Source of the DNA: Amyloporia xantha
Taxonomy: Eukaryota > Basidiomycota > Agaricomycetes > Polyporales > Adustoporiaceae
Length of the DNA: 64,000 nt
Assembly (NCBI GenBank): GCA_036971615.1
Contig: JAYKKR010000024.1
Span: forward strand, 1 to 64,000
Reading direction: 5' to 3'
A program made the position numbers and the translations under genes. Position 1 is the stretch's first letter; every line of letters begins with the position of its first letter. Below the pieces are notes generated by a model. It worked only from the letters and a program-made list of their open reading frames with translations, was not told the origin of the DNA and did no database searches. Below, piece by piece: positions 1 to 55,625 of the stretch.

Positions 1-112
1 CCTAACCTAACCTAACCTAACCTAACCTAACCTAACCTAACCTAACCTAACCTAACCCTAACCTAACCTAACCTAACCTAACCTAACCTAACCTAACCTA
101 ACCTAACCCTAA
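1..112. repeat. Telomeric repeat array (CCTAA)n
   Basis: The window opens with about twenty tandem CCTAA units, interrupted by two 6-mer CCCTAA units, one near position 56 and one at the inner edge near 108. On the G-rich strand this reads TTAGG with occasional TTAGGG. C-rich repeats at the left edge are the expected orientation for a chromosome end. Most Agaricomycete telomeres are TTAGGG, so the 5-mer majority is unusual. It could be a variant telomerase template, a variant-rich inner zone, or a consensus artefact. Confidence 0.95.
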
Positions 113-3381: not shown

Positions 3382-3615
3382 GGAATAGCGTCCCGGGACG
3401 CTATTCCTAATATCGACGTACCTTTATATCCGTGGAATAGCGTCCCAGGACGCTATTCCTCAGTAATTCACATCTGCATTTTCATGGAATAGCGTCCTGG
3501 GACGCTATTCCACGGATATAAAGGTACGTCGATATTAGGAATAGCGTCCCGGGACGCTATTCCTAATAATATCTACCTAAGCGTATTGTGGAATAGCGTC
3601 CTGGGACGCTATTCC
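3382..3615. repeat. Family-1 palindrome array, 5 copies at an exact 52-bp period
   Basis: Copies of the 26-bp palindrome (arm GGAATAGCGTCC, 2-bp centre CG, CA or TG, then the reverse-complement arm) start at 3382, 3434, 3486, 3538 and 3590, so every step is exactly 52 bp and every spacer is 26 bp. Spacer 1 and spacer 3 are exact reverse complements of each other, so 3382-3459 and 3486-3563 form a larger inverted repeat. The array sits 3' of gene A1 (stop codon at 3759), in its 3' untranslated or flanking region. Confidence 0.97.
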
Positions 3616-3758
3616 TAAGATCGACGTGTGTTTCACGCACATGAAGGTAACACGGAACTGATCATGATATTAAACAAACTGCGCGAAGAGTGTAAGATAT
3701 GCTAAAATAAAACTATGCGTTCGACTACGACTGCTACGTGGATAGTGACATTAGAGAA

Positions 3759-6700
3759 TTATGCATCGATGACAATAGGATCCTCCGCTTCGTCTCCCGT
3801 TTCAAGTTCGAAGGGATGTTTCTCTTCGGCCTGCTTCATCAACGCCTTCCAGATGGGATCGTCGTGGTCTTCATCGGAGCTGCTGGAGATGTCGATGTCG
3901 AGGATGGAAGTGAAATCCTGCGTCGCCTTCCCCTTTCCCTTCGCGTTGCTTCCCTTGCGAGCCGTTCCTTTTCCCTTAGACTGTGGGAGGGAAGACGCGA
4001 CCACGGTTGACGAACCCTGGACGAAATCTTCACCGTTGGCGGAGGCTAGGCGAGGACGCTTTGAAGAAGACGGGCCCATCATATCCGACGAGCTGTCTGT
4101 ATCATCGTCGTTGAGGATTCGATCAACCCATGCAGGCGTAGATGAGGGGGCGTGACGGTGTTTGCGACGAGAAGCAGATGCGGAGCGCGTAGAAGGGCCG
4201 GGCGCGTCGAGATCCATTGGCAAATCGAAGGTCATCAAGTCGTGACGAGGGGCCGTAGGGTAATGCGGATTGATGAGCGGAGCGTCGAGCGTCGGAGGTG
4301 TGAAGGCGGTGCGTGCGATGCACTGGCCACGGTGCTGGGCGAGTTCAAGAGCCATGGGTGCGCCGAAGATGAGAACGCAAGCGTCGAAAGGGCCATAGGG
4401 GAGATCGTGAAGCATGGTCTTGAGCTTGTGATAAAGATCGATGAGGATGTGGTCTTCGAAGAAGTTCCAGTCGCGCTTGAAGATTGCGGCTTTCCAGATC
4501 TTCGAGCCGGAAGCCCAAGCGAGACCAAGACGCACCATGTTCAAGTGACCGATGCCCTTGGCGGAGTGCTTCTTGGTCCAAGGCTGTCCCAAGGCACCCG
4601 TACGAGCGAAATGACGACGAATGGGGCTTTGAGGGTCATGCAGGCCGATGATGTAGGTGGTGACCATCGGAATGAAAGGCACGGGGTCCTTCGAGCCCTT
4701 GCGCGTAGGATGAGGCTCCCATGGGAGCTGGCGGATGGCATGAATGGTCTCGCTTTGGCTCGCGCCCAGGGGAACTACCCTCTTGCTCGTCTTGTCGTAG
4801 AAGACATTCGGCACCGCCTTCGACATGGAAATGGCGAAGAAGAGGGCTAGGTGGTGGACTTTGTTGGCGAAGTTGAAGTTCTCCTTGACGTAGCGGTAAG
4901 TCTCCATCACATATCTCGCTGCCTCCGAGTTTGCGTCGCCGCCGTCGCCGTCGTCGAGGATCAAACTCTCGTAAGACATTTCGAATTCGTCCGGCAAGAC
5001 CTGACACTTGAAGACAGTGTGCAGCTTTTGAATCGGAATGTCAGAGGCTGTCCAAGGGGCACGGGTGTTCTCGGCGGCGGCGCGTCGACCGGAGGTGCTA
5101 GCGATGATCTGGTGAGTGACGGAGGGGCTTTGCGTCATGGCGAGGCGCATGGTGCGCATTTCCTCGTACTCTGCGCCCTCGAGCATCTTGCCGATATCGG
5201 TCCAGAAGCGCGGCGAAGCCAATCTGTGCGGACGCCCTTTCTTGCCGGAGTGAGGAGGCTTGTCAGGAACGAAGCTGATGAAGGAGCTGTCGATGGCCAT
5301 GACGAAAGCCTGACAGACCCAGTTGCGAAGACAGTGCTGTCTGCGGTTTGTGAGGGCTGGACTGACGGATGGCTTCTTGAAGTCCTTCGGCGCGCAGGAG
5401 AGCATGTAGTGGACGGCGATCTTGATGACGGTGTTCATGGCGCCTCCGCTGAGTAAAGGAGCCTCGATGGGAGTGGAATCTTCCTTGCCCAAAGCGAAGA
5501 GACGACTTGCGAACTGGAGGATGGTCATCTTGGACTTGTTCGGATTGGGAAGTCCGAGGTAAAGGTCCTCTGGGTCAGCGGTGATGGCACGAAGGAGAGC
5601 GTCGTACGCGCCGTCCTTGTATGACAAGGGGTGGGCGGACTTGAGCCATTTGTCGAGTGCTCGCTTGCGCTCATCATGGTGCTGTCTGGTGATGATATCG
5701 GCGGACGCGGCGAAGCCAGAGTTGGTAGGGGATGGCTCGATCATCTTCCTGAGCTCCTCTTCGACGAGTTTGGAGACGCTAGCCTTGACGTCGGAAATGT
5801 AGACCTCGAGGGCGACCTCAGCGACCATGGCCGCATGCCGAACAGAAGGGGAATAAGACTTGTATTTGTGAGGCGGCATGTGGTGGAAAATCATGCTGAT
5901 GCGAAGGTCGGTGAAATACGCCTGGCATGATTAAAAAAGAGAACATCAGTAATGATCGAGATGAATGGAATTGAATGTGGGTGAGGCTTACCAAGAAGTG
6001 GACAGATCCATAAGTGAGTTCTTGCGCGCGGCGGGATGCCACTGCAGGGAGCCTGTTAGGACCGACGGTAGGATAGTCTTGTGGGCGCATCTGGAAGGAG
6101 GTGGTGATGGTGGGGCTTATGCGAACGATGGGGGAGAGGGTGGGCATGCCGAGGGTGAGGAGACTGCGAACGATCCATAAGGGGCCCATGGACTGAGTGG
6201 AGAGGACCTTGGCGTTTCCTGTGTGAGCATAGGCGAGCACGCGCTCGAGCATAGCACACATTTCGATATCGATGGCAGGGGGCCTGAGCAGCAGGTCGAT
6301 GACAGGGCCGATAGTGAAGATGATCTTGTCCAAGTTGTCCCTGTGATTGGCGAAGATGCGCTCTATGAGGGAGGTGACGCCATAGGACGTCCACTGATAG
6401 ACCGCAGGAAAAGCCTGGAAAATCAAAGGTGATGTGAGCGCTTTGAAGAAGAAGAAGGAGCAAAATGAGAAAAAAGACTGAATGAGACTTACATCTGCAT
6501 GAAAGACGACAATGTGTCTCTTGAGATCGTCGAAGACATGAGGATGGCTCCAGGCCGCGGTCAGCTTGAGGATGATGCTCTTGTATATCTCGCTGTAATA
6601 AAGAAGACAGTGATGGGGAAGGAAGGGAACTTGGATTAGTGCCAAGTGCGAAAAGAAAAGAAAGCGAGATAGAGGAAAGGACATACGTTCCGTGTCGCTG

Positions 6701-9447
6701 AGCCTCAGGGATGCTATCCATATCGATCTGGTAGACGTTCTCCATTCGCAAGGCGCGAGGGACGTCGGGAAGGTCGATGCGTTTGTTGAATCGTTCATGA
6801 GGCAGGTTGAGGGAGCACTTGCGCCAGATGTGACGATGGATTTTCTTGCCCTCCGGCGTTCGGGCGTATGCGCCAGCGAGGGCCATGCCGACGGAACCCT
6901 GGCAGATCTCATGCATGCCAGAGCTGGGGCGAACGCGATGGGAGATGCTGTTGTAACCCTGAAAGCAAACGGGCGTGACGACGGGAGCTGTGAACAATTC
7001 GTCCATGACGGCGTCTTCCTCATCGTCGGTGTCGACGACTGTGGGACGTCGAGAGCGAGTGCGCCGAGTCGAGGAGCGGGCTGTGGAGGAGAAAGGACCA
7101 GGGCGTCGATTAGTACGTGGACGGTCGTCGTCATCGTCGTCCTCGTCGTTGTCGTCTTGACCCTCATCCTCATCGTCCGTCTCGACATACGCGCGGCGAG
7201 CGGAAGCGGTGTCCCTTCGCGCACGACGCTTGCGGATAGCGTCGTAGTGATCGTTGATATTGTCGATGAAGGGCAAGACGGCGGTGGGGATGGCGTTGGC
7301 CTGACAGTTTCCGATAGTGCGGAGGAGGGCTTGAGGGTAGAGACGGACGCTAGTAGCGGAGCGATGCTCGGGGCGTCTTGTTTCGGAGTCGTTGTACGAG
7401 GACCGAGGAGGGTTAGCGTTTGTCGGTCTGGACTCCCAGCCCCTTCCGTCTCGACGGGGATACTCATGGCTGTCGTCGTCGTCGTCCAGAGTCGTCAGAG
7501 TCGGAAACCTCATCGAGTTCAGGCATGTCGGCGTATATGTCTTCCACTTCGTTTTCACCCTGAACGTGGCCCTGATCCTGGTCTCGAGGAACGCTCTGGG
7601 GCATGACGGCGGGTTCGAACATGTCGGCGCAGGTTTCGAGATTGAGGAGGGGGGCGCAAGGCAAGGCGTCGCTATCGACAGCGGCTTGGAAACGAGGGAT
7701 GCGACGGCCCGATGGATTAAAGATATGAATTGGATTGCCCTGCTCGTCTTCGTAAGGCAGGCGATGAAGTTCGCGAATGCGCTGACGAGTGTCTGGATTG
7801 GGCGAATCGTAGATGACGGGGTTCTTGTTGACGATATCGATAAGGGATCTTTTTTCCCACTCTCGAACCTCATGACAGCTGAAGAATATATTAGTGTGTG
7901 GGAAGTGAGATAGAAAACGGACAGGAAAGACTCACGAGATATGGGATGCGAGGGCGATAGAATAGAACTGGATCTTATGATACTTGCGGGACCTCTTCCA
8001 CACGTCGAGCTCAGCGTTGAATTGATCACGGACGGCGACGGGTTGGTTTTGGCCATATCGAACCGAGATGAATATAGGTTCGCTCTTCATTAAGAACCCG
8101 TCCTCCTTCCACTCAGCCGGAGCCTGAGCGAGCCACGGCTCCCACTGGTCACAGATTTGATCACTGAGCTTCACAGTATCGACCAGGCGCATCTCGAGCG
8201 CGTTGAAATCCCTGTTAAATTTTGAAGAACGCCAAGGGTGGAGAATGGTGGAATAGCGTCCCAGGACGGTATTCCGTGAAACGCAAGAGGTGAATATCGT
8301 AGGAATAGCGTCCCGGGACGATATTCCACGGAAACGCAGCATGAAGGTCGGATAAAAGGAGGTTTTCGTCAGTATATATCATGCAATAGATTAACGGGAT
8401 ACGCACAGGATATTGGTGCACTGAGACAGCGTGAGCTTTTTCGGGTCCTTCTCCCCGGGAGACCCGTAGGGCCGAGTGACGGCGATGGGCTGGGTGGGGA
8501 TCAAGCTGACGCAGTGGGCGAGGAACAAGCGCAACATCTCGATGTGATGAGGCAGCATACGAGAATCACCCGTTTCTCGAGCGGCGTACGACATATCACC
8601 CAACTGCTCTTGCGCCATCCTTTCGGCATCGGCGGCGCGCCAGTTGTGGGGGCGCATAGCGAGCCAGACCTCCGACAACGCGCAGCGGCCGACGTACATC
8701 ATACGACGCTCGGTGGAAAACCCTCGACGACCGAACTTGGCTTTGAAGATACGGTAAGGCTTGTGGACGTCGAGCACGAAGCTGTAGGTCGGATCGACCA
8801 CAGCGTTCGGCAGGATAGCGTCGAGGCCGGTCTCGCGAGGGACGACCTCCTCGTAGTCGATGAAATGCTCGCGGAGCTCCCAGACGAGATCGTCACTGTC
8901 AGAAGGGATCACGTACTTGGGGTCGATCTGGAGCTTGACCTTCTTGCGAAGAAGGTTGATGGCGCTCGTCTGGTCGTGACGCCTGAAGTTGCGCTCGAAG
9001 GCGGAGAGAGGAACGGTGATGGTGGGCTGCTGGTCCCAGTTGACAGGAGGGTTCCTGCTGTCCGCGTCGTACAGGAGACAGCGTTGCACCTCCTCTTGAC
9101 CGAGGGCGTCGTGCGCGAGGATCCCGTTGGGGACATCGTCGATGTCGAACGGGCCCAGAGCGCCGGCAAGAGTGAGCTGGAAATCGCTCGTCTCTTCGGC
9201 CCTGGAGAACAAACACGATGGTGAGCCTCGTATCTCCTGCGCAGAACGAGTAACACTTACGCATCTTCCTCAGTGACGAAGTTCGCGAGAACTTCGTGCG
9301 CCGGAGGAGGCGCATTTCCTTCGTCCGCACTGTCGCTGCTGAACACCAAGACAAAGAGGTCAGCAAATCACTCATAAATACAGAGTAGCGGGTTCCGACT
9401 TACACGTCGAAACGAGCAGCGATATCGTCCACGTCCATGGGGTCCAT
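3759..9447 (-). CDS. Module A gene 1 (A1): large subtelomeric protein of unknown function
   Basis: Function not recognised. I model eight exons: 9404-9447, 9261-9338, 8407-9201, 7936-8211, 6687-7878, 6493-6592, 5992-6414 and 3759-5921 (about 1,690 aa). All junctions are GT-AG and keep frame except one break inside the fifth exon near 7,490, in an acidic GAC-repeat stretch. That break could be a real frameshift or an assembly indel. The start MDPMDVDDIA is chosen because B1 shows the same three-short-exon opening. Conserved blocks shared with B1 include MMYVGRC, YGQNQPV, SHRVRP and FIPMVT. The middle and the C-terminal 150 residues are acidic and serine-rich, ending DPIVIDA, and look disordered. 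No transmembrane segment is evident. The third intron (8212-8406) carries two family-1 palindromes. A2 lies 786 bp upstream in the same orientation. It may be an intact member of a subtelomeric family or a recent pseudogene. Confidence 0.75.
8250..8327. repeat. Family-1 palindromes inside A1 intron 3 (2 copies)
   Basis: Copies start at 8250 and 8302, 52 bp apart, with a 26-bp spacer. Both lie within the 195-bp intron 8212-8406. The homologous intron of B1 (55,195-55,595) instead contains four family-2 palindromes. The copies have one or two arm mismatches (GGTATTCC and GATATTCC at the right ends). Confidence 0.95.
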
Positions 9448-10233
9448 GAAGGGCAGCAGAGTCGAAGGATTTTGGAAAGCGAGTAGAGATAGATGTAGAG
9501 AAAGCGGGAGAGCGATGTTCGAAGACAAAGGACGCTATGCTTGTCTGAGGACAGGCTCTGCAGAGCATGGAGAGGATGAGGCTGGCTTTTATACACCAAC
9601 TGTTTGTTTGGATATCGCCTTCGGCCGTACGACCTGGTCGGGCCACTCGCAAATTTGGAATAATTTGAAACATTTCGGTCTCAATTTTTCTTTCGTTGAC
9701 ACCCGACGGAGCGTGACCCGACCCTGAAGCCGTCGCTCGTCGGCAAGCTTAACAGGGAATGGAATCGGAAAGGCGAGATCGCGCTGAACGCGCGATCTAA
9801 CCAAAAGCGGATTCGACGCGTTAACTCAAAGGTGGGATCATCGGTAGTCCCGCATTAGGGACGCAGCGGGGATCTCGCATGGATGAACGCTGCTGCGGCA
9901 CATACCATTAAGGGAAATGAGATCTGTGTTTCAGATATACTTCCGGGTACTACTCCGCGCCGGACGGGGCGAAGTCGCTAACTTCGCAGGCATCGGATGC
10001 AATAGTAGTGCGCTTGACACGCAGCCTGCCTCCGAGGCCAGTGCGCTCGAGACAGATTCCACTGGTATACACGCTCCAGAGTGCATAAATGATAACTATT
10101 GCCATTGCAAAGGTACTGCTATTTAAGTAAAGGACATGAAGCAGGGTGAAGATATTAGTAGCAGGAAAAGGCGCAACGTTGCGCCGATAGATAAACGAAA
10201 ATGACATAAGCTGCATGACAACGAAATGTGCGA
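9448..10233. promoter_or_regulatory. A2-A1 intergenic region and presumptive A1 promoter
   Basis: About 786 bp separates the A2 stop codon from the A1 start on the minus strand. It contains no palindrome of either family and no convincing gene. I could not identify a clear TATA element. It must hold the A2 terminator and A1 promoter if the two genes are transcribed separately. Confidence 0.35.
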
Positions 10234-13200
10234 CTAGACGTCCGACACGACAAATCTCGACTGCGAGGACGACGACCCCTGAGCGCCAGACTTCTGCGAA
10301 TTGGACGGTTCCATGGGCGCTGCGGATCCAGATCGAGAGCGCGAGCCACCACGCTGTTTCTTGCCGGTGCCAGGATACGAAACCCAATTCGAGCGAGGAG
10401 GCTGGCCTTGCGCTGTGAGTTCGTCGCGGCGCTGCTCCATGTTAGCCACCGTTAAGGACTCGCGCACAGCAGCAGCCATTGAGCTTGCGCGAGTTATCCG
10501 AGGAGTGAACACAGGACGCGGCGCGGAGATCGAAGCGAGGGGCTGAGGCACATTGCCGGATGTGCCGGTGTGTGCCTGCGCGTGACCACTGTCGGACCGT
10601 TCGTCCTGGCGCATTTTCTTGTCAGGACCTAAGCAGATGCAAAAGGAAGTCAGATTGAGGGAAGGACAAGATGAGAGACAAAAAACATACGTTGCTCGTG
10701 CCCCGCGCTATTTGAGCGATCTCGTTTTGCTCCGAGCGCGACAGCGGAGGAATTGTCTTGCCGTTGCCCGAGCGAATCCGTATGAAAGCCAGAGTCGACA
10801 CTGGAGTGCATTTCGAAGTCTTCCTGGGATGACAACGGCGCAGAATCGTTGAACTGACTCTGGGTGAAGTCTAATCCAGCGTTGCGCTCACGCTCCTCTT
10901 CCGCTTCCTGCATCTCGATCTCGAGTTGCTCTATGTCATCCGCATACTTCTCGAAATCTTGAGAGTCTGTGAACTGCAAGGGAGCTTGGTGAGGCCGATG
11001 CGCTGGCTGACGAGCGAGATGATCCGATGTCTCTGGAACGGTGGGCAGGGCGAATTGCCTCTGGTAGGCTGCTGGGCCGCTGGGCCGCTGCCTGTGTTCC
11101 TGAGGGAAATAATTGGGCTGGCGAGACGTACCAGCGCGACGAATGGGAGACGTGTACTGCGATGGAGGATACGGAGAATTAGATGCGAAAGAGGCATCAG
11201 AATCCGAGCTGGCAGGAGCAGGGGTGGGGGGCATCGGCGGTGGAGTCGAAGATGGCTCCGCAGGGATCGTGGCTTCTTTTGTAGCCCTGACTTCCTCTTC
11301 GTGTTTCTTGATGAGAGCGTCCAGACCGAACTTCTGTAGATCCTCCGGAGACATGTACTTCTCTATCTTCCTGATCACGTCTGGAGCGAACGACGCAAGG
11401 CCCTCGTTCTTGATAACGCGAATGGCAGCGTTCATCTTCTTCAAACGATGGCTAGTGAGCGGAAGCACAGTCTCTGCAAACAAACGAAACATCATTAATG
11501 TCTCAGTCATGTGCGAGGTTAGGCTAGACGAAGCACTCACGATTCTGCCCAGGCAATTTAATGAAGAAATTGATATCCCTGTTCACCACGACATCCCGAT
11601 TGAATTTGTGCCGAGGAGGGATAGGAGAGTTCCAATCTATGGTAGCTTTGGGAGTCCTCTCCATCCTCGTCTTCCTTCTCTTGGGCGCGTCCGGAATGTC
11701 ATCAACATTGATAACCGATACTTGAGAGGACGATGCTGTACTGGAATCAGCACCTATCATAGCGATGTGAGTTGTCACATAATCACACAAAGGATGTGAT
11801 AGGAAACTCAGGAATAGCGTCCTGGGACGCTATTCCACGAAACATCGAGCACGCATACTCATGGAATAGCGTCCTGGGACGCTATTCCACGAAACATCGA
11901 GCACGCATACGCACGGAATAGCGTCCCAGGACGCTATTCCACGAAACACCAAGCACGTGTAAGCCATGGAATAGCGTCCCAGGACGCTATTCCTGGTTTA
12001 CGAACGTGCGAAGAAGAGAAAACTTACCTCCTCTGGGTGGTGCAGATCCGTCTGCGGTTTGTTCAGCCATGGGCTCGTCCTCGTCGTGAACGAATATTGC
12101 GTTCTCTATGGGTCCCTGTCCAATCATCAGATGCTTCAACATGTCCAGGTCCTCAGACGCGGCGCTCGACTCCCGCATGAATTTCTCCAACCGATCGGAT
12201 TCCTGCTCCAACATGTCGCAGATGTGGTCTCGGTCACTGTCGATCCAGTACTGCTCATCGTCGTCCGCAGATGCGCCTTCGTCAGCCTGGCTCGCATCGG
12301 TGTCCATAGGAACGTCTTGGCTCGCCGCAGGGGTATCCAAGGTCGTGGCGAGACTCGACGGCGGAGCACTCGCCTGCGTTTCGGTCAACAAGTCGTCCTC
12401 AGACTGGCTCGCTGTAGCAGCCAGCGCAGCCGCGGCGGTCTGGGCATCCTCCTCCATTATTGCCAGCCGCCATTGAGGTATCTTTGGAGCCGCTGCGCTT
12501 GGCGCTTCGATCCCGCCCTTCTTCGCCATCTGTTCCCTTCGCCAGCGAGGTAGTATGGTCGCCTTCTTGGGAGGTTGGCTCGGCGCTGCTGCCTTGGGCA
12601 GCTCTTCAACGTCTTCCTCTTCCAGATCCATCGGCGATGACCTCCCCGATGTGTTCAAGTCCTCCGCCTCAGCTGGGGTGATGTCTTTCGTCTCCCCTTC
12701 CATCGCCCCATCCGTCGCGGTGGATACCTCTCCGCCCGTGCTGTCGACTTCCATCGCTCCAGGCTCCTCGACTGGCTGATCCCCGTGCTCCGACTCCATC
12801 TCGGTTTCCGGAGGTGCCCCTCCTCTTCTTCCGAACGCTCCCCTTCCTCTTCGTCAGAAGGTTCCCCCTCCTCCTCGTCAGAAGGTTCCCCCTCCTCCTC
12901 TTCTTCCACAGGTTCCGTCGGCTCTCCGATCTCGGACTCTCCCTCGTTGCCCTCGGACGCACCCTCCGACGGTTCCACGTCCGACAAGTCGTCGTCGCTC
13001 GGAATATGCCCTTTTGCAACCTTCTTCGTGGCCTTCCGCTTGCCTTTCCCGTAAGCCGCCTTGTCATGCTTCGTCCCTCCCTCTTCGCTCTCTTCGCCGC
13101 TGTCACTCTCGCCCCCCTCGTCGCCTGTGGGCTCCTTTTTGACCACCAGCGTGATGTTTTGCTTGGGAGGCGCCGTTTCCCGCCTGGTGTTGCTGTATAC

Positions 13201-16200
13201 GCTCGTCATCGCTTTCAGCAGCTGTTCACCATAGTTAGAATTTTAGAATATTGTGTAATAAATGTGCATGTCCTCACATTCGACTCGCCAGCCATCCCTT
13301 CAGAATATGTCGAATGGTTGCTGTGGACATATCGTCCGTATTCAACGTCCTGCAAGTCGAACCGCGGCTTGTCGCCTTCGAAGTCGTATTGGTCCCACAC
13401 ATTACGATTGGCGTTGATGTCGAGCACCTGCCGTCGTTCGAAGTCAGCATCCCTCCCCATCGCGTCTCACAACCATTTCGCTTACCTTCGCCAGCAGTCT
13501 CGTCGCGATGTACACCTCTCGCGCAACAGCTGGCTGTTCACGCTTCTTCGCAACAGCTCCAGGTTCGTCCGAGACCACAATCCGGTTGTGGTTGGCAGGT
13601 GGAAGTCGTGCAACAGACATCCGTTCAATCGAACGGATGATCGACTGCACCTCCTGGCGATAATGCGCCGTCGACTTGATTCGATCCAGCGCCCTCAACC
13701 CCTCTAACCCCCCCTTCACTCCCGTAGGCCACTCACGAGCGATCGGCTCGTTCTTACCTGTCGTCTGTTCCAGGAGCGTCTCGTCCCAGAAGTGGAACTT
13801 CGCCGTCGGCATGTTGCACATCCGGTTCTCTTCCTCGTTCCACTCCCTCTGCGGCTCGATGCTGCTCTCGATCGCAGTTCGCAGAGCCTCCCGCAGATCC
13901 AACGTGTCCGCGTGCATCGTCTTGTGACGGTAGCTGGTCACCGTGTCCTCTTCCACGATCATCGCAGCGCAAAGCCATTTCGGCGGATGGCTGCGGATCA
14001 GCAGCCCTGCGATGCGTGGGTGCGATGTCAGTCCCAGACGACCCCCAGGAGGTGGACGGAATCCCGCTTTTCTTTCCGTCAGCATCTTCGCCCTCGCCGC
14101 GCGGTCCGTCTCGTTCCTCTTCAGGTGCGGCAGCAGCCACTCATGACAGTTGTCAATGTCAGACTGGTTCCTGTCGGACATCCATGGCTCCTTTTTGTAA
14201 ATCGTCCAGAGTGTACTGTCTGCGTCTTCGGCTTGCACCATCTGCTCCACCTTCGTCTTGTCTGTAATTCGCGGAATAGCGAGTTCGATCAGATCGCACT
14301 CCAGGCGCGTCATCGATCGAGGGCAAAAGTCGATGAGGACCTGCGCGATCTGCGAGCCCATGCACATGTCAGCACAAATGTACTTAATGCTAATCATAAT
14401 CGTATCCACGCACCTTATGATACGCTTCGCGAGCGCGGATGTGCGGAACCGAGCGGACAGCGTTGTAAATGCATGTCGAGCCGTCGTTCATGATCTGATC
14501 CCGCGAGTTCTTGCCACGGTAATACCACCACAAGCCTTCGAAGTACCCACATACCTACAGAAGCGCCCATCAGTGGAACACATTAGGGAAAAGAGCAAAC
14601 AAACTCACCTCCTGCTGTGCCAGCGGGGTCCGCAGGAACATCTGGTTGATGGCTGCCATCATCGACGCGCAGAGCAGTGGCAGCGGAGGCGAACGATGGA
14701 TATCGCTCTGCCTCGACAGTAAAACGAACGTCCGCGCGAGCACTCGATCGGCGTGTGCTTCGCTGACCTCACCTTTCTTGACCATAATCTCCAGCCGCTC
14801 ATCGAGCCAACTGATGACCCTGGTGCGATATCCCTCGAGTTTCTTGATGTATGTCCCCTCTTTCACACCGATCCAAGGGAGGGAAGGTCCAAAGAACATG
14901 TTGAATACCGTGTCTAGGCCATCCAGCGTGTCCCTGTCCTTGAAGATCTGGAGCTCTCCCACCTTGCCTCCTTTGATGTCTTGAAGCCACTTCTTGGCCG
15001 TCTCGACTTCAGGGAGCTTGGCGTACTCAGCGGAAGATAGCGTTTCTTGCGCCTTCTCCAGATTCTTGATGAGCGTCGAGACCTCTTCGAGCGATGGGAA
15101 ATTCTCGCTCGCCGATTCGATGCATGACAGCTCCAGGTGCTTCATGTCGAAAATGACGGCGAAATGCTGTGTGGAATGATTGAGTGAGAATAAAAGAAAT
15201 TATATGACAAGACAAACGTACCGCAGCGTGAATGTTCACCAGCGAACACAAGAACTTCATGGTGAAGGTCTCCTGTCGACGCCAGTATGAACCCATCTTG
15301 TTCATATGGGACAACATGCGCACAATGTGGAAGTTCGAGAGGATGCGATTGGTGCGCGAGTTCAGCTTGTCGTCCTTCAGACCCCTGACCTTGTTCTCGA
15401 AAAACGTCTCTCCCTGCTTGAGGTACTCCTCCAGCACAGCGAGCCTCGACACGAGCAGCTCCTCGTGCGTCTCGCCATAACGATGCTTGACCTCGTTGCG
15501 CGAGAGATGCTTCGAGAGACTGCGGTTGTTCTCGAGAGCGCCTGCAAAAAATGATATCGTCAGCGCCGATAAATTATATTATTAAGTCGAGACGAAGAGG
15601 GGCCGTCGCGGAATAGCGTCCCAGGACGCTATTCCGCCAGGACGCTATTCCGCGACGCACGCACATACACGCGGTGCGGAATAGCGTCCCGAGACGCTAT
15701 TCCATGTTATATCGACCAGCGTGAGGATGAGGAATAGCGTCCTGGGACGCTATTCCGCACCACGTGTATGTGAGGCGTCGCGGAATAGCGTCCTGGGACG
15801 CTATTCCGCAATATCGATGGAGCGGCGTTATACGGAATAGCGATCCAGGACGCTATTCCGCATACCGTCGAATAAAATAAAAATAAAAATACGCGTATAC
15901 TTACGACGGTCGTAGAGCTTCACGCCCCACCAACGAAGCTCCTCGATCTTCTTCTCGGTGTCGGCGATGTTGTTCGCGATCCGCTGGTCCTTCGCCTGCG
16001 CATTCGCATTCCCCGCCTCGAGCTTCTTCTCGAGCTTGTTGCGGTCCTTCTCGTACACCTCGATCTTCTTGCGCAGCTTCTCGACCATGTGGTTCACAGC
16101 GGCGTGACGATGCTGCCCACCGCACGCCATGATCTGGTACCCGCTCGTCTTGAATTTGAGCTTCGGAAGGTTGATGCCGCCCAACTCGTCTTGACTCGGC

Positions 16201-16705
16201 TCCATGTCCAGGTCCTCCGGATACACCGCCAGGGGAAGCTGCGAGTCGCTCGCATAGCTGTGCACTCCGTTAACATTGAGGTTCTCCTCCAGGCCGTCCC
16301 GCTGCTTGACCACCATAGGACGAAGATTTTCCCCGCCGAAAACAGGCGAGTACGCCTCCGTCTCCAGCATGTCGATTCGCGCGAACCCGAGCCGGTGCTG
16401 CGTCGCGAGACGGTCGAGCTCGAGCGTTTCCTCAGGTACCGGCTCGAATTTCATGACCTGCGCCCCTCATCTATTAGCGAATTCGTTCCCTCCCAAGAAA
16501 TTCCCTAACTCACCTCGACTTCCTCCTCCTGATCCTCCTCCTCGTCCTTGCGCTTCTTAGCAGGTTTCTTCTTCCCCTTTGCCCCCGCCGCCGCTCCCGA
16601 CCCCTCCGCGCTGGCGCCCTCAACGGCCTTGCCCGCTTTCCGCCCTGCAGGCTTCGCCTTCGCGGCGCTCGGCCCCGCCGTCGCAGCGTTCGATTTCGGA
16701 GGCAT
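10234..16705 (-). CDS. Module A gene 2 (A2): large protein with ParB/Srx-like motif
   Basis: Function not established. I model eleven exons: 16514-16705, 15905-16457, 15222-15541, 14609-15166, 14414-14554, 13486-14349, 13278-13427, 12028-13221, 11541-11753, 10691-11473 and 10234-10628 (about 1,790 aa). All splice phases agree except for one frame break near 12,800-12,830 in a Glu-rich run. After a Lys/Ala-rich start (MPPKSNAATAG) comes a block ending YQIMACGGQHRHAAV near residue 177. GGQHR in this setting resembles the GxHR/GERR box of ParB/sulfiredoxin-fold proteins, and the upstream IDMLETEAYSPVF and QLPLAVYP resemble that fold's N-terminal part. A coiled coil follows (VEKLRKKIEVYEKDRNKLEK). 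The C-terminal third is acidic and then Ser/Pro-rich. Introns 15,542-15,904 and 11,754-12,027 carry family-1 arrays. B2 is the counterpart. Confidence 0.72.
11811..11993. repeat. Family-1 palindrome array in an A2 intron (4 copies)
   Basis: Copies start at 11,811, 11,863, 11,915 and 11,968 (steps 52, 52, 53), inside intron 11,754-12,027. The three spacers are related, each starting ACGAAACA and containing GCACG, unlike the spacers of other arrays. Subtracting four 52-bp units leaves about 66 bp, a normal intron length for this genome. Confidence 0.97.
15610..15859. repeat. Family-1 palindrome array in A2 intron 2 (5 copies plus a half)
   Basis: Full copies start at 15,610, 15,678, 15,731, 15,782 and 15,834. 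The first step is 68 bp because a 16-bp partial copy (right arm with flank) is duplicated after copy 1; the others are 53, 51 and 52. The spacer edges around 15,660 and 15,757 are inverted relative to each other (CATACACGCGGTGC versus GCACCACGTGTATG). The array lies in the 363-bp intron 15,542-15,904. Confidence 0.96.
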
Positions 16706-17211
16706 CTTGGACTCAAGGGTTTCGATTTTAGACTGGAAGCAGTGAGCGAATGGATTTAGTATGTGGATGTGTAGACCAACAGCGCGAACACCAATTCGGG
16801 AAGGCCGCTCAGCGCCGGCGCGCGCGGCTGCGCCCAATATAGTCATTCTTTCCCACACTCTTGGCTCGATCACTTCGGCGCATCTTCTCTCACAATCTCT
16901 CACTTCTCATCCTTCTCCGTACTTCTCGGACTCCCATATTCCCTCCCTCTATCACATACATCTACATAGTCACCTTTCAATATATTTTTCCCTCATCCGA
17001 CTTGTATCATACACATGCTACCGGTTCACCGACATGTTCTCCTTCCCAACCATTTATAATGTCCGGTAGCATCATGTCGTCCATTTCCTTTTCAACCAAA
17101 CAATGTCAGATTGCACCCAGCTGCTCGGCTCCTCCACTACAGTAGACACATGCTGCGCATAGTACATCAAACGCACACTCTACGACTCCACTATTCCATA
17201 CCAGTACATTC
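16706..17211. other. Upstream region of A2
   Basis: A pyrimidine-rich tract of about 500 bp (CT-rich from 16,860 to 17,060) is typical of a fungal promoter or 5' leader on the opposite strand. No gene seen. Confidence 0.4.
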
Positions 17212-17623
17212 TCACAGCTTCGACCCCTTCTTCACCGATTCCAACATCCTCAGCTGTCCCGGAAGCACAGCAGGACTCATCGACTTGATGTCATGCGCTA
17301 ACGAGATGATCTCCCTGTATTTCCCGATCGGAATCCCGTCCGCATCGCGCGCACCATATATACCAGAAAGCACCGCCATTCCAAATCGTGCCATATCCTG
17401 TCAATTCCATGTAAGTCCATAGCCTTCAAACACCTCTCTATGGACTTACTGCACACCACAAGACACGTTCCGCCCACTCCAACCACATCGCAGAGAACAC
17501 GAACGGCTGCGCCATAGGTCGTTGCTTCCATTCCAACTCGAGGCCGTCAAAACCTTTCGTGACCATACCACACACTCCAACGAGCGTGTTCGCAGGAGGC
17601 GGGAACGGATTGTTGCCTGTCAT
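17212..17623 (-). CDS. Small protein of unknown function, copy 1
   Basis: Not recognised. Two exons, 17,450-17,623 and 17,212-17,397, joined by a 52-bp GT-AG intron, encode about 119 aa starting MTGNNPFPPPANTLVG. The end of exon 1, WLEWAERVLWCA, matches WYEWAQRVLWYG at the same position, just before the single intron, in the gene at 18,339-18,712, so the two are probably diverged paralogs. No domain or signal peptide is evident. Both genes are on the minus strand in tandem, separated by a short family-1 array. Confidence 0.55.
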
Positions 17624-18056
17624 GGTGGATATGATGAGGACAAAAAGACTGAAAGTACGTCTTCCGACCCACCGCTGGCTTTCATATACGTCTCCTTTTA
17701 GCGCCCATGCCTTTCCATCACCGAATTGAACACACGGCTGTTTGACAGAAGCTTGATGCAACATCACACGTGGATCCGCATACAGGCAAAAATGAGGCCG
17801 TTCGCGACCATCAACATGGTTCGTGTCCACAACGCTCTGCACGTACATAATTTAGACACAATTCACTTCATGTTGTAAATAATGAATGTTTAATGTCCCC
17901 CGAAATACGCAACGAGAGAGGCTATCTGCATCCCTCAATATATTTCTATGTGAAGACGGCATACTAAAAAAAAACCCACAATAAATCATGTCCTGTTGTG
18001 CGCTCCGATCACCCGTTCATATCTCGATCGATTGGCCGATCGAGCGATAGAATGAC

Positions 18057-18186
18057 GGAATAGCGTCCTGGGACGCTATTCCTGATATCTTCGATATAGA
18101 GATTACACGGAATAGCGTCCTGGGACGCTATTCCTCGGGTATCCAACGTCGAGATGTTACGGAATAGCGATCGTGATCGCTATTCC
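18057..18186. repeat. Family-1 palindrome array, intergenic (3 copies)
   Basis: Copies start at 18,057, 18,109 and 18,161, exactly 52 bp apart with 26-bp spacers. The third copy has a changed centre (GCGATCGTGATCGC) but is still a perfect palindrome, which suggests compensatory change or gene conversion. It lies between the two small paralogous genes. Confidence 0.97.
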
Positions 18187-18338
18187 GCGCTGTCACACTT
18201 TTCATTCCATACTAAACTATTAAATATAGTCTTTTCTGTGCATGACACATGCACATTTTACCCTTCTACACAAATGCTACGGTGATCCTACTAATAATTA
18301 TTCATACATTCATACATCTAATAAACTGTTGCTTACCA

Positions 18339-18712
18339 TCAGTCAGCTTGGACGTCCTCCATCCTTGCTTCATTCTCCATGTCTTGAACAATCTCCGCCG
18401 CAAGTTCAACCAACGGACGGTAGATCCCAAGCACCTGGTAGATGATCATCCCTGGGTTATGCGACCTCAGCGTACCCATTAGCACCATGTACTGCCCAAG
18501 TAATATAGGTCAGCTTTCACATAACTGTTGTTGACACAATCACTCACACCGTACCATAGGACTCGTTGAGCCCACTCGTACCACACCTCCGCCGGATGTT
18601 CCGTCCCTCTGCTCGCAACTCCCCACTCCCACTCCACTCGCAGCCCCGCATACCCTAGGCATGCCACATGGTACATGTGCTCATTGTATTCCTCCTCAGA
18701 GATCGTCGCCAT
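18339..18712 (-). CDS. Small protein of unknown function, copy 2
   Basis: Not recognised. Exons 18,548-18,712 and 18,339-18,491 joined by a 56-bp GT-AG intron encode about 105 aa starting MATISEEEYNEHMYHVACLG. The shared WxEWAxRVLW motif ends exon 1 in both this gene and the one at 17.2 kb, with the intron at the same place. The remainder is diverged. The C-terminus is acidic (EIVQDMENEARMEDVQAD). The protein is likely soluble. Confidence 0.55.
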
Positions 18713-19267
18713 CGGGATACGGGGATAGGTATTCTTTTCGCATTTCGTCTCCTCTTCCCCTCTCTCTTATAACACTATTCCTCTATCTTACGTTTCAGAA
18801 GCCCTCGCCTACATCTCAATATATTCAAGCTCTTCCCAGACTATTTTTCAGATCCTCAGATCCCCAGATTCATTCAATTCTATCTCGCTTCTTCTCCGGT
18901 TCTCTCCTTGATGCGCCCTGTCACACGCATCATCTTCTCATCTATATATGTCATCCTCCGCGCATCACATCATTTAGTTTTGACATGAGAATAGCGTCTC
19001 TGCATCCCCATCACCACATGGCCCGCCTCACCCAGTACACAAGGTCTCCTTATCATAGGCCTTCCATTGGCTAATTATCCATATCCCCGATCAAATACAC
19101 ATATTCTACAACATCCATCTTTCTCCATATTCCCTTCGCTTTCTTGTCTGCCTTCCTGGCGCCTAATTATTTAAACATGTCTTGTCTCAGCCAAAGTATT
19201 TTATTTGACAACCATGTGAGTATGCTCATGTATGTACTTTTGAACGTCACTGATCCCTATAATCGAT
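18713..19267. other. Non-coding spacer
   Basis: A CT-rich stretch at 18,730-19,000 resembles the one upstream of A2. I see no gene or palindrome in it. Confidence 0.4.
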
Positions 19268-20313
19268 GGAATAGCGACACGGACGCTATTCCACATATTT
19301 CCTCGTCGCATTCCGTGGAATAGCGTCCCTGAACGCTATTCCACGAGTTCGGTATGTCTTTATTTTTATCAGACAGAGGCGCATAATCATGGAATAGCGT
19401 CCTAGGACGCTATTCCATAGTTTCCACTTTATTATTTTTGTATAAATCAACGGTGCGTATTCATGGAATAGCGTTCCAGGACGCTATTCCTTGAACACGC
19501 ACATTTAATTTATATAAAAACAATAAAGTAGCAATCATGGAATAGCGTCCCAGGACGCTATTCCACGGATCTGTCATGTCTTCGTTGGCATCAGTCAAAG
19601 ATACATAATCACTGAATAAGGGTTCTGCTCCTTCAATGATATTGTCTTTATGTGAATCCAAAATGTGTGTTCATGGAATAGCGTCCCTGGACGCTATTCC
19701 ATAATTGCTACTTCATTGTTTTTATATAAATTAAATGTGCGTGTTCATGGAATAGCGAACACTATTCCATCATTTCCACTGGGTTGTTTTTATATAAACC
19801 AAAGATGCGTATTTATGGAATAGCGTTCAAGGACGCTATTCCACAGCTTGACTCGTATTTATTATTGCCCTCCAGGGACACTACCCATGGAATAGCGTCC
19901 CAGGACGCTATTCCGCGACTTCATCATATCTTCTTTGTCATCAATCAAAGACAAATTATCCCTGAATAGGGTTCCTGTTCCTTGGGTTTTGCTGTCTTTA
20001 TGTAAATTAGTGGTGCGTGTTCATGGAATAGCGTCCTTGAACGCTATTCCATGGTTTCCACTCATCTTTGTTATCACCACTCAATGGTTCATAACCATGG
20101 AATAGCGTCCGTGAACGCTATTCCACCATTTCATCATGTCTTTGTCTTCGCCTGTCAATGCCATTACATCACGGAATAACGTTCAAGGACGCTATTCCGT
20201 GGTTTCTGCTCTCTTTGCCTATGTACATTTAAGGTCCGCAACTTTTTGTCACTTGTCAATTCATGTCAGTTGAGGGTGCATATTTATGGAATAGCGTTTC
20301 TGGTCGCTATTCC
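19268..20313. repeat. Dense family-1 palindrome field, 13 copies, 74-bp period
   Basis: Copies start at 19,268, 19,317, 19,391, 19,465, 19,539, 19,675, 19,749, 19,817, 19,889, 20,025, 20,099, 20,173 and 20,288. The dominant step is 74 bp (six times), with 136 bp twice. The 68-bp step follows a copy shortened by 6 bp, which restores 74. Spacers share AT-rich motifs such as TTTATATAAA and GGTGCGTATTCAT. Copies are more diverged than in the 52-bp arrays, and several keep complementary changes in both arms. No gene lies in the field. Confidence 0.95.
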
Positions 20314-20390
20314 ATGGTTCACCACTTAAGATCCCTAGGAAAACCCTAGATTTACCCCAACCCATTTAGAAAAACTCCCTATAATGCAAA

Positions 20391-39307: not shown

Positions 39308-40114
39308 CTACGACCCGTAGCTACGAGTCGCAAGCGAGTCGGTGGCGAAAGGGGACGGGATGAGGGAGTCGCAAGAGGGACTTTGCGGGTGACGCCGACC
39401 CGTGAGACACCTCTGATCGCCGTTGCCGCCGGCGACGAACGGCTGATCTGCGCACCGTCGCCCTTTTTGCGAACGGTAGATAGGATGTCGGGCTTTCGAT
39501 TGAGGGTGTTCCGAGGGCAAATGGCGCGGAATTGATGGACGGCAGGACGGGAGAGTACGGGAAGTGCCGAATGGACCATTCGGCGGCTGGCATATGGGTA
39601 GAATATCAAAAGGATCTACATCTGCATCATCTTCATCATCACTGGGGACCATTGCACGCCTCTTGCCTCGTGCGGTGGCACTGAGACCTGTCCTGGACCT
39701 TGGGTTTGATGAAGATGGCCTAGCATCGTCAAGGAGGATGATGGGCTGAGAAATGGAACCCCCCGTGATGTTACTTGGCCTTCTGATGAGCTGCCCATCC
39801 TCCACCAACCTGTCTGCCATCCACTGCCCTCCGATGGCTTTGACCGCATCATAAGGACCGTATGGAGCAGAGTTGAAGAGGGTGAGCAGCCTTTGGTAGT
39901 ACCTGATGAGCTCCTCGTCCTTGTGGAATTTCCAGTCCTGGCCGAAGATGGGCTTGATGATTTTTGTCGAGGTGGCACAGGCGATACCCATGCGAACGAG
40001 ATTGAATGCGGTCAAACCTTTGGCGTTGTGCTTGGCAGTCCATTGGGGACCAAGTGCGTTTGATTTGCTCTTGGCGACTGATTTGCAAAGGGGTGACTGT
40101 GGGTCCCACAAAGC
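39308..40114 (-). pseudogene. Module B gene 1 (B1), 3' part, separated by a transposon
   Basis: The frame continues the broken B1 gene. After PALWDPQSPL it reads KSKSNALGPQWTAKHNAKGL, FNLVRMGIACATSTKI, FGQDWKFHKDEELIRYY and APYGPYDA, which line up with A1 segments DPQSPIRRHF, GQPWTKKHSAKGIGHLNMVRL, KRDWNFFEDH and LPYGPFDA. The sequence starts abruptly at the left target duplication of the KDZ element, and the 5' part of the gene resumes on the other side at 51,415. Joining across one target copy restores FILALWDPQSPL in frame. The tail is Ser/Asp-rich like that of A1 but different in sequence. Confidence 0.85.
40107..40114. repeat. Left target-site duplication of the KDZ element
   Basis: CACAAAGC here is repeated at 51,415-51,422. 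Eight base pairs is the size expected for KDZ/Zisupton-type elements. The two copies lie at homologous codons of the interrupted B1 gene. Confidence 0.9.
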
Positions 40115-40953
40115 AGGCCTATGTGCCATATCAATACATAATTTAGCTGTCCCAAGTGCAGGACCGTGATGTATAACTCACTGAGCCTACAGCCGCTGCT
40201 GTTCATACATGAACACACAGGTCGTCATGTATTACCGTTCACGCCCATAACTGGTAGCAATCGGTCACGCGCCCCGCCTTTTTCGCCGGTGCGCCCCGGC
40301 TTGCCTTCCGCAAGCGCTCGCTGAGCAGCCAGAACCTTATTCCAGCTTGTCGATCTGCAGTCCGCCCGATCTGGGTGTAGCGCCTTTCCCTATCTGGACG
40401 GCGGGCCTTCTGTGCTTCTTGCGCTCCCTTTGATGGGTTCTTCGTGTGGGCGCTAACCTCTTCGCATGAGGACTTGTGTATATGCGTCTTCCTTCGCTGA
40501 CATCATCCCCCCAATACCATGGCCAGACGCTGTCACCGCCAGTGCGTGCTCCTGACTCCGTCTCGTCGTCCATCACAAACATAACATACACATACCGAGC
40601 CATTCCGAACCTTAAGTTCACTTCAATTTGCAATAGACTGTGACAACTTTTTTTTTATTATCACAGCGATTTTTAAGACATTATGTAGCTACAGCAAGCC
40701 CAAGAAAATATGACTACAGCAACATAAAGTAATACGGGATCTTCAGGTACATGCTGAGAGCCTGATGGGTATAGACATGAGCCGTTAAGAGCCGGAGATC
40801 AAGAATACAACACCACGCGTACAGCAAGAAACAGGCAGACATGAGGGGACCCAAATCAATGGAGCGAGGAGAAACTAATTATACGAACGTACTTGATACT
40901 ACAAGAATCGAGGTGGTAACCACTAAGCTCACCGAAGCCCCCTATTCACCAAT

Positions 40954-43272: not shown

Positions 43273-43592
43273 GGAATAGACTCTGGTCAGCAGGAGGTAC
43301 GGGGAGATGCGTGGATAGATGGGGCTTACCGTCTGAGGAATGGAGCGTCCGAGACCTGCCCATACATTGGATCCTGTGCATTATGAGAGTGGACGATCCA
43401 GGACGGTGGCCACCCACATGGTGTGGCAATTTGAAATGCGAATCGCGGCCAGCAGCAGCTTTCAAGAGTCTAATTGCAGTCGGGGAGTGGGAGCCAATGA
43501 GGATCTGGCTCGGGCGCCTGGATGCTCATATAATCCGAGAGGTGTCAATCTGCGATCCTTCATCAAACTCCCCAGCCTTCCCACAGTTCACT

Positions 43593-44367
43593 ATGCATCA
43601 CTCGCCCGGCCCGCACAACGAGGGAGGTGACGCTGAGCCATCTCCCTCGTTGTCCTTCACCGTCGATGAGGTCGTGTTGGCCCTCCAGGCTCTCGCCCTT
43701 GGTGAGTGTCTCCCTGGCGCTCATTTTCCATGCTAATCAACTACACAACCATACACAGCTCGAGACACAACGACCGCCGCTGCTCCTGGCCCTGCCACTC
43801 CTGCGCCTGCGCCCGCACCCACCGCTGCTCATGCTCCCGCTACTGCGCCCGCTCCCGCTACTGCACCTGCTGCGGCGCCTGCTACTGCGCCCACTCCTGG
43901 TGCTGCTGCGGTTCCCGCTCCCGCGCCCGCTGCTCCCCCCACTCCTGCACCCGCTGCCCCGCCTGTTCCCGCTGGCCCTCCTCCACCCTATGCTCCCGCT
44001 GCTGGCCCGGCTGGTGGACCTGCTCCTGTTGCCGCTCCTGTCCCCGCTCCTGCCGCAGCTCCAGCCATTCACGCAGGCGCTGCTGGCAATGCCCCCCAGC
44101 CCCCGTACATCCCTATCATCGATGCGGACGTCCCCGGGCAGCGCTTCTACATGATTTCCCGTGGACGCCGTGTGGGGGTGATCCGTGACTGGTAAGCTCC
44201 GCCGTTGCTCACTGTCCGCCCCCTCCTTACACTGCCATAGGGCGCAGGCGGCGGTGTACGTGTCGGGTGTTTCCCACGCGTGCTACAAGAACTACAGATC
44301 CCATGGTCAAGCGCTGGCGGCCTTCCGTGAGGCCGAGCGAGCAAACCATGTCGAGGAGGTGTTGTGA
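43593..44367 (+). CDS. KDZ accessory protein with RNase H1 N-terminal (viroplasmin-like) domain
   Basis: Three exons (43,593-43,701, 43,759-44,191, 44,241-44,367), all GT-AG and in phase, encode about 222 aa. A short N-terminus (MHHSPGPHNEGGDAEPSPSL) is followed by a roughly 100-residue Ala/Pro low-complexity linker. The C-terminus reads RFYMISRGRRVGVIRDW, then AAVYVSGVSHACYKNYRSHG, then AAFREAE. This matches the short fold found at the N-terminus of eukaryotic RNase H1 and in caulimovirus viroplasmin (FYxVxxGRxxGIxxxW...VxGxxxAxxKxFxS), which binds RNA:DNA hybrids or double-stranded RNA. No RNase H catalytic domain is present. A nucleic-acid-binding helper for transposition is a reasonable guess. 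Confidence 0.8.
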
Positions 44368-44663
44368 TGGCTGCCCCACGAGGCGTGAGGTGGTGGCGCC
44401 CAGCGGGCTTCGCGTCTGTAATTTCTCTTCCCTTTCTTGGTACGCGCGAAGGGGGATCCATGGTCCCCTCGGCGTAGGGTCGATGTCCTTATCTGTTGTA
44501 TATCCATTTGTATATCCGTGCTGTCATGTATCCGTGCTGTCGCTAGCGGGCCCCGGGGCTTCGTGATCCTGTGTACTCAATATAGTTAAAGTCAATGTGA
44601 CCATGTGTGGCTGCCGTGAATAATCGTTCAAAAGCATAGTCCCAATGGCCTCGCTTCTCCGCA

Positions 44664-51414: not shown

Positions 51415-51422
51415 CACAAAGC
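51415..51422. repeat. Right target-site duplication of the KDZ element
   Basis: CACAAAGC, identical to 40,107-40,114. The base before it is the last base of the element. Confidence 0.9.
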
Positions 51423-55556: not shown

Positions 55557-55625
55557 GAACGGGGCACAGTAACGTAAAGAAAAGAAAAGACTTACAAGAT
55601 GTTGGTCACGTCCGAAAGGGACCAC

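Follow-up and report, generated by a model that had tools for sequence, protein, structure and literature searches.

Why short palindromes should alternate with spacers of equal length, at nearly constant steps, in a fungal genome is the question raised by the window, i.e. the whole 64,000-nucleotide stretch that was analysed. The palindromes are real: with up to two mismatches they are matched 128 times in the 46.8-Mb genome, a count that takes in some sites of the related family B (which differs from A by 2), against 0 for the reversed-pattern control. All 50 of the 50 places listed from these 128 matches lie inside copies of a subtelomeric element, here termed element A, which spans approximately 3382-20386 of the window. 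The arm GGAATAGCGTCC alone has 57 matches in the window at no more than one mismatch, compared with 0.31 expected.

Palindrome arrays of element A

Within the window, element A contains 30 counted palindromes. They sit either between genes or in corresponding introns of homologous genes, with introns inferred from GT-AG signals and homology. Array 1 (3382-3615; like the other arrays, assigned to neither strand) contains five dyads at 52-bp steps. Array 2 (8250-8327) contains two dyads within an inferred intron of gene G1 (8212-8406), and each of these consists of one A-type and one B-type half-site; its reported position is right, but its arms carry one mismatch. Array 3 (11811-11993), which has four dyads and tandemly duplicated spacers, lies between the G4/G3 gene and gene G2, array 4 (15610-15859; five dyads and one extra half-site) occupies an inferred G4/G3 intron (15542-15904), and array 5 (18057-18188; three dyads, 52-bp steps) lies between G5 and G4. 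The initial annotation placed all five of these arrays correctly but overlooked a sixth at 19281-20313, which comprises eleven dyads and degenerate sites, has steps of 72, 74, 115, 136 and 142 bp, and adjoins the right end of the element. Among the 24 steps shorter than 260 bp between the 30 palindromes, thirteen measure 51-53 bp and ten exactly 52 bp, one exact step fewer than the eleven first counted.

What A conserves is a pair of inverted half-sites separated by a constant gap, GGAATAGCG-N8-CGCTATTCC, and the gap is 8 in 27 of the 40 inverted half-site pairs no more than 60 bp apart. All 60 half-sites agree at positions 1-6, 8 and 9, which the search pattern itself fixed, though three substitutions per site were allowed. 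Only the 9-bp half-sites are constant, while the centres and positions 10-12 vary. The early suggestion that the spacing could reflect a protein dimer is upheld as a possibility.

Related families carry other half-sites

Every one of the four families (A, B, C and E) is characterised by a half-site and a fixed gap of its own. The half-site and gap are GGAATA(T/C)CG-N8 in B, GCGCWTCCG-N10 in C and GCGGCAT-N16 in E, with 200 exact genomic copies of the C type and 85 of the E type, and 0 for each reversed-pattern control. Inverted pairs no more than 60 bp apart have a gap of 8 in 14 of 17 cases in B, of 10 in 8 of 8 in C and of 16 in 5 of 5 in E. Counting of each half-site in A, B, C, E and control stretches, in that order, gives an almost diagonal matrix: 62, 0, 0, 0 and 0 matches for the A half-site, 2, 33, 0, 0 and 0 for B, 0, 1, 24, 0 and 0 for C, and 2, 0, 1, 18 and 2 for E.

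Family C is also represented in the window, with two dyad arrays (neither strand assigned) at 60312-60746 (seven sites, 65-71-bp steps) and 62961-63286 (five sites, 70-79-bp steps), one mismatch per half-site being allowed in both. At 51380-55640, five exact C half-sites include no inverted pair, and with one mismatch allowed the inverted pairs have a gap of 10 in 4 of 5 cases. The centres in C are partly conserved, often as TTCGNTCGNG, which indicates that more than the half-sites is kept in this family. A step histogram of the stretches analysed retains the proposed 52-bp peak for A and B (52/53 bp) but not for C and E. Because the steps are approximately 70 bp in C (65-80 bp; up to 89 bp in one intron) and 50-64 bp in E, 52 bp is specific to A and B rather than a general ruler; the 65-80-bp steps of C also misfit a 10.5-bp phase.

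Homologous positions hold differently coded sites. At the c|b junction of G1, dyads are present in A, B, C and E, each with a different code, and differently coded dyads occupy the G4|G3 junction in A, B, E and a paralogue on contig C57, whereas the b|a intron of G1 holds sites in C and E and none in A. The family-C homologue of G1 in the window (39308-58606, minus strand) is split by two inserts, one bearing KDZ (about 40115-51414) and the other palindromic and 2.2 kb long (55633-57866). Its c|b intron (55195-55595, minus), flanked by the same exons as the array-2 intron of A, contains C-type dyads at 55261, 55348 and 55437. In its b|a intron (52627-52956, minus), position 52790 holds a C-type dyad and position 52877 a palindrome with a different core; one mismatch per half-site is allowed for these C-type dyads. 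Where the homologous exon ends, exact E dyads are also present at C15:5815, 23535 and 28822, C36:19484 and 24764, and C6:922545.

Palindromic mobile units are known from fungal mitochondria, and the sites lie in DNA read as non-coding, as would be expected if small MITE-like units had repeatedly inserted into the non-coding parts of the element. However, the steps are regular (52/53 or ~70 bp), the code and gap differ per element family while the intron positions stay the same, and no copy lies outside the elements among the assignable listed places (50 each of the 128, 200 and 85 matches), which makes this origin highly improbable.

Half-site letters, not base pairing, are conserved

The palindromes might instead act as RNA hairpins (in introns, UTRs or small-RNA precursors) or as extruded DNA hairpins. 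Perfect 12-bp arms in 19 of the 30 A palindromes agree with this, as do the presence of sites in introns and flanks and weak miRNA-like covariance matches, which remain below the gathering scores of their families (0 of 16 listed Rfam matches reach that score in the four loci searched, all outside the window). The inner positions of the A palindromes, however, vary without compensation: 6 arm mismatches could wobble only in plus-strand RNA, 5 only in minus-strand RNA and 4 in neither. In B the corresponding numbers are 6, 6 and 5, perfect arms are found in 1 of 15 palindromes, and the half-sites likewise have invariant positions without compensation, with one exception. In E the half-sites and gap are kept, yet most of the 16-bp centre is unpaired (six exact dyads have 1-4 complementary pairs out of 8), and two longer palindromes of this family lie between neighbouring dyads with varying gaps. 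What is conserved in A and B is the letters of the half-sites, not base pairing, and a hairpin function is quite improbable.

Spacers

Ten of 99 comparable spacer pairs exceed a 1% shuffle threshold, compared with approximately 1 expected. The claim that spacers mostly differ thus needs to be narrowed by these ten related pairs, but it agrees with five spacers of 26-27 bp (3564, 15704, 15808, 18083 and 18135) that belong to no pair above the threshold, which indicates that spacer length is kept where sequence is not. Regular palindrome arrays with many unrelated, equal-length spacers are borne out. Spacers 3408 and 3512 of array 1 are exact reverse complements. The array at 11811 is a tandem repeat with spacers 73-92% alike, and its unit number differs among the copies on contigs C10, C17 and C23; simple tandem duplication, against which the initial annotation had argued, is the ordinary explanation for this array, whereas many other spacers are unrelated.

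A diverged satellite, in which 52-bp units without function were duplicated and their spacers decayed, would explain this tandem array with its varying unit number, and the inverted spacer pairs would represent local rearrangement. The half-sites are nevertheless identical while several spacers of no detectable similarity are still 25-27 bp long, a single code extends across all six arrays of element A, and in other families the homologous introns hold a different one. The satellite reading accounts for array growth, not for conservation, and as a full explanation it is rather improbable.

Alternating repeats and spacers of equal length are common to these arrays and to CRISPR arrays, and had suggested a CRISPR-like system. 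In CRISPR-Cas, however, cas genes lie near the array, spacers are unique and come from other replicons, and a single direct repeat is identical throughout, whereas here some spacers within an array are tandem or inverted duplicates of one another, only the 9-bp half-sites are constant, and these are inverted and differently coded in relatives. Two of 20 spacers were searched across this genome (up to three mismatches) and have no match outside their own arrays, and no cas gene family is listed by Pfam for the long ORFs of the element or its neighbours. Immunity through acquired spacers has practically no likelihood.

Genes of the element

G1 (3759-9269, minus; a model with inferred introns) is a homologue of DUF8190/PF26608-type proteins of Suillus, Pluteus and Lyophyllum. 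The largest G1 frame matches protein P0001 with 31% identity over 73% (E 5.6e-63), and the c and b exons also match, so that by alignment G1 is judged homologous to the DUF8190 (PF26608) family over most of the protein. PF26608, which we infer from database names to be DUF8190, is the precomputed domain listed for 36 of 44 family proteins; hmmscan lists it neither for the six of them that were scanned (P0001-P0004, P0031 and P0035) nor for the window frames. A literature search with the term "DUF8190" returned no paper, and a Foldseek search with G1 returned no match with E≤0.001. G2 (10653-11829, minus; boundaries approximate) consists of open frames with no assigned family. G4/G3 (11990-16906, minus; exon ends approximate) comprises an exon with a GGQHRHAA motif, the array-4 intron and a large part with no assigned family. 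Open frames kept in B (17215-17851, minus) may be the 5′ part of G4, and G5 (18342-18766, minus) is a small conserved two-exon frame.

Pfam, NCBIfam and PHROGs scans list no convincing DNA-binding domain for any frame scanned. The GGQHR(H/Q)xAA motif of G4/G3 may resemble ParB/sulfiredoxin, and by this motif the G4/G3 protein is a first candidate for a binder of the sites. Domain scans list no ParB model for the G4 frames, the predicted G4 fold is unusable (pLDDT 45.6), and ParB_N (PF02195) has no match in this genome at E≤10, compared with matches in 11 of 14 control genomes. The lack of any recognised DNA-binding domain among the element proteins would suit sites read by host-encoded transcription or silencing factors. 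Such factors seem unlikely, since the four codes in one genome are each tied to one family, for which linked, co-diverging binders are the easier account.

A proposed model of self-marking arrays

In this model, the arrays are quite probably binding sites for a dimeric DNA-binding protein, on a superfamily of multi-gene, subtelomeric and probably mobile elements. A protein dimer would read the half-sites, and because site and genes diverge together, the binder of the family-specific sites is probably encoded by the element itself. The regular spacing in A and B (52-53 and 74 bp) would let neighbouring dimers touch. Since the site differs from one family branch to the next, each element may thereby label DNA as its own; the arrays would mark the whole element for self-recognition, possibly in partition or clustering, in switching its own genes off or on, or in transposition. 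The arrays would expand and contract through duplication, deletion and inversion between sites while the spacers drift.

The layout is like that of plasmid parS or operator arrays. In the centromere-like ParB-parS arrays site specificity varies between plasmids, and arrays of inverted-repeat sites with family-specific sequence are found here. The parS F locus of the F plasmid has twelve 43-bp repeats in tandem that contain ten 16-bp inverted repeats (PMC6238139); as here, inverted-repeat sites are repeated in tandem, there for a dimeric protein. The present arrays differ in belonging to a eukaryotic subtelomeric element, in lying also in introns and in having several codes per genome. A bolder reading, tentative and open to considerable doubt, would be a eukaryotic superfamily of giant selfish elements in which each family encodes a dimeric binder and carries a private dyad code along its whole length, introns included, so that copies recognise, cluster or segregate themselves and ignore relatives, like plasmid incompatibility groups.

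If the model is right, related elements in a single genome carry four or more naturally occurring variants of a protein-DNA recognition code, and binder-site co-evolution could be tested directly. The arrays would also give DUF8190 proteins a first functional setting, show selfish elements sheltering their control sites in introns, and point to a new kind of large element at basidiomycete chromosome ends.

Element ends and chromosomal setting

The contig starts with (CCTAA)n telomere repeats (1-112, plus strand), which adjoin a truncated family-C right end (...AACCCTATATAAT|; 108-268, plus). The right end of element A (...AAAAACTCCCTATAAT|; 20340-20386, plus) is precise: the boundary is identical at 8 genomic places, and the flanks differ among the 7 of these that were read. 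Neither a left end nor a target duplication was detected, and transposition is therefore only inferred; the elements are probably mobile.

In subterminal transposon arrays such as those of En/Spm, a protein encoded by the element binds short TNPA motifs that occur in either orientation. Arrays of that type lie near the ends, whereas the present sites run through the whole element, introns included, and no transposase was identified in the element. Terminons, or telomere-associated Penelope-like elements (PLEs), are likewise large, multi-gene and telomeric with truncated copies, but dyad arrays, present here, are not described for them in the available part of the source (PMC6431247), and here the genes point away from the precise (right) end. 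No reverse transcriptase family is listed for the element ORFs scanned, a set that excludes small exons and the undefined left end. Starship giant transposons are also large multi-gene fungal elements, but their hosts are Pezizomycotina and the host here appears to be a basidiomycete; Pfam lists no DUF3435 captain recombinase for the ORFs scanned, the left end of the element being undefined. The elements are a little-known multi-gene family at fungal chromosome ends.

Truncated A copies adjoin PLE-like remnants that carry a hammerhead-like string and two or three CCTAA units. CCTAA units stand immediately ahead of truncated A on contigs C55 and C19, where they seem to belong to the neighbouring PLE-like remnants, and on C10 element A joins B without CCTAA units.

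Palindrome arrays of element A

The five array positions claimed by the initial annotation (3382, 8250, 11811, 15610 and 18057) are correct, and a sixth array, absent from that annotation, spans 19281-20313 with steps of 72, 74, 115, 136 and 142 bp. At up to one mismatch, the palindrome arm has 57 matches in the window versus 0.31 expected. The full palindrome has 128 matches in the whole genome at up to two mismatches, a total that takes in some sites of the related element B, which are two mismatches away from those of A; the reversed-pattern control gives 0. The 50 matches listed are all exact, are distributed across seven contigs and all lie within copies of one repeated element, element A (approximately 3382-20386 in the window). 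This copy contains 30 palindromes, and of its 24 steps below 260 bp, 10 are 52 bp and 13 are 51-53 bp. The A and B steps agree with multiples of 10.5 bp (mean cosine of 0.80 for the 34 steps and 0.54 for the 12 distinct values), and the family C steps (65-80 bp) do not fit such multiples, which indicates that helical phasing is at most an A/B feature.

Among 20 spacers of 20-60 bp, 10 of the 99 pairs of similar length exceed the 1% shuffle threshold: three at 11811, the exact inverted pair 3408/3512, the inverted pair 19417/19491 and five weak pairs, one of them inverted (3460/8276) and the other four within array 6. A further inverted pair (15636/15757), kept out of the comparison by its length, was seen by eye. 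Additionally, the copies on contigs C10, C17 and C23 differ in unit number. These observations indicate array turnover in which units are duplicated, deleted and inverted. Spacers without mutual similarity are still 25-27 bp long.

Conserved half-sites and family-specific codes

In the 60 half-sites of the 30 A palindromes, positions 1-6, 8 and 9 are invariant (the search pattern set these positions but tolerated three substitutions per site). Of these half-sites, 57 have G at position 7; variation occurs at positions 10-12. The 15 B palindromes (30 half-sites) contain one exception at positions 1-6, 8 and 9, and position 7 is T in 26 and C in 4. The arms are perfect in 19/30 A palindromes versus 1/15 in B. 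The mismatched arms would form a wobble pair in plus-strand RNA, in minus-strand RNA or in neither in 6, 5 and 4 cases in A and in 6, 6 and 5 cases in B; thus, there is no wobble bias on either strand, and compensation is absent. These patterns indicate that the conserved entity in A and B is an inverted half-site pair at a fixed gap rather than a hairpin.

The B, C and E elements share the layout of A and have different half-sites. Inverted pairs within 60 bp are at gap 8 in 27/40 cases in A and 14/17 in B. For C, the gap is 10 in 8/8 exact pairs and 12/12 pairs with one mismatch at 57867-64000; at 51380-55640, exact half-sites give no inverted pair, and 4/5 pairs are at gap 10 when one mismatch is allowed. 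For E, on contig C15, the gap is 16 in 5/5 exact pairs and 9/13 with one mismatch. The C dyad centres are conserved in part, and in six exact E-type dyads only 1-4 of the 8 central pairs are complementary. The longer E palindromes at 11911 and 15982 are sited between neighbouring dyads, so inverted duplicates are also present in E arrays.

The matrix of half-sites against elements is almost diagonal, with no more than 2 matches in any off-diagonal cell; each family has its own site code. Across the genome, exact dyads number 200 for C and 85 for E, with 0 in each control and 50 places listed for each; among the matches listed, the E dyads are on contigs C6, C15, C35, C36 and C57. The palindrome arrays are real and unusual; the likeness to CRISPR that had been proposed for them is wrong, and they are family-specific dyad-site arrays belonging to subtelomeric multi-gene elements that form a superfamily. 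In A, the two dyads of array 2 (8250 and 8302, spanning 8250-8327) each combine one A-type and one B-type half-site, and hybrid dyads of this kind also occur at C23:2575397. Such dyads look like half-sites changing one at a time and are possible intermediates of a code change.

Placement in introns and intergenic DNA

The element A genes G1, G2, G4/G3 and G5 are on the minus strand, and the dyad arrays occupy both intergenic DNA and introns. The intron boundaries were derived from GT-AG signals together with homology at the protein level rather than from transcripts. The place between G1 exons c and b holds dyads in A (intron 8212-8406), B (without assigned intron ends), C (55195-55595) and E. 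The intron between exons b and a holds dyads in C (52627-52956) and E, and that of A is without them. The G4/G3 intron following the exon with the GGQHR motif holds dyads in A (15542-15904), B, E and a paralogue on contig C57. Judged by position only, exact E dyads are also present where the homologous exon ends in six more paralogous places on contigs C15, C36 and C6.

Candidate reader protein

The data establish the site code and where the sites are placed; a reader protein and a purpose for the arrays are inferred. Pfam, NCBIfam and PHROGs scans listed no convincing DNA-binding domain for any frame covered. The GGQHR motif of the G4 exon, invariant in three aligned sequences (A, B and E), may resemble ParB/sulfiredoxin proteins. 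The direct test of a ParB-type reader is negative: ParB_N has zero genome matches at E<=10, and 11 of 14 control genomes give matches. The predicted fold of G1 is of moderate confidence (pLDDT 76.0, pTM 0.50), and a structural search with it returned no convincing match. G1 is homologous to 44 DUF8190/PF26608-type proteins (39 from Suillus, 2 from Pluteus, 1 from Lyophyllum and 2 without a species name), a range that points to a basidiomycete host; no paper on DUF8190 was found in the open-licence literature searched.

In layout, the closest likeness is to plasmid centromere/operator arrays such as parS of F, which an excerpt of PMC6238139 describes as 43-bp tandem repeats with 16-bp inverted repeats. 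If a dimer binds, the dyad arrays would work like such an array; they are not classed as ParB-parS because of the negative ParB_N result.

Element ends and subtelomeric neighbours

The right end of element A is at 20385/20386, and alignments reveal an identical boundary at 8 genomic places, with different flanks in all seven copies read. The distance to a contig end is 9.8-63.4 kb for seven of these right ends and 117 kb for the eighth; evidence of a telomere, in the form of telomere-type repeats, is limited to the ends of contigs C17, C19 and C55 and, as short repeats, C22. The best long copies are on contigs C10 (99.4% identity to the window) and C23 (97.6%). On C10, the right end of A is fused directly to the broken end of an element B, and B and A share 67-76% DNA identity. 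At the window start, telomere repeats adjoin the 161-bp right end of family C, a part covered by 37/46 genomic matches of its query, window included. Short tandem repeats (units of 41, 38 and 27 bp) are present between the telomere and element A at 575-704 and 2504-2804.

The telomeric setting and multi-gene size are shared with terminons, as described in passages of PMC6431247. Conserved sequences with two to three CCTAA units at their end are present at C10:132000-132132, C19:17080-17350 and C55:7800-7857. They stand where truncated A begins on C19 and C55, and a C-type copy presumably begins at the one on C10. The hammerhead-like string CTGATGAGTC..GACGAAA, read on C10 and C19, precedes the CCTAA units; a search of four loci against Rfam listed no ribozyme. 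These remnants look like telomere-associated Penelope-like elements and, on C55 and C19, are neighbours of truncated A, not A itself. Penelope-like elements are linked to telomeres in the Agaricus bisporus telomere-to-telomere paper (PMC7473861), in which a text search returned no mention of palindromes. Among titles and abstract openings of the open-licence literature on palindromes, subtelomeres, mobile elements and mushrooms, no matching prior report was recognised.

A seemingly giant family E element of at least 35 kb (C15:1240-36623) contains several paralogous G4-like genes, one G1 and one dyad per approximately 1-2 kb. The family-C G1 gene in the window is split by an insert of approximately 11.3 kb (40115-51414) with a KDZ transposase frame at 48378-49196 (PF18758, E 1.3e-38). 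It also contains a 2.2-kb insert (55633-57866) that matches itself in inverted orientation (94% across 2249 columns), and related pieces adjoin element A ends on contig C34.
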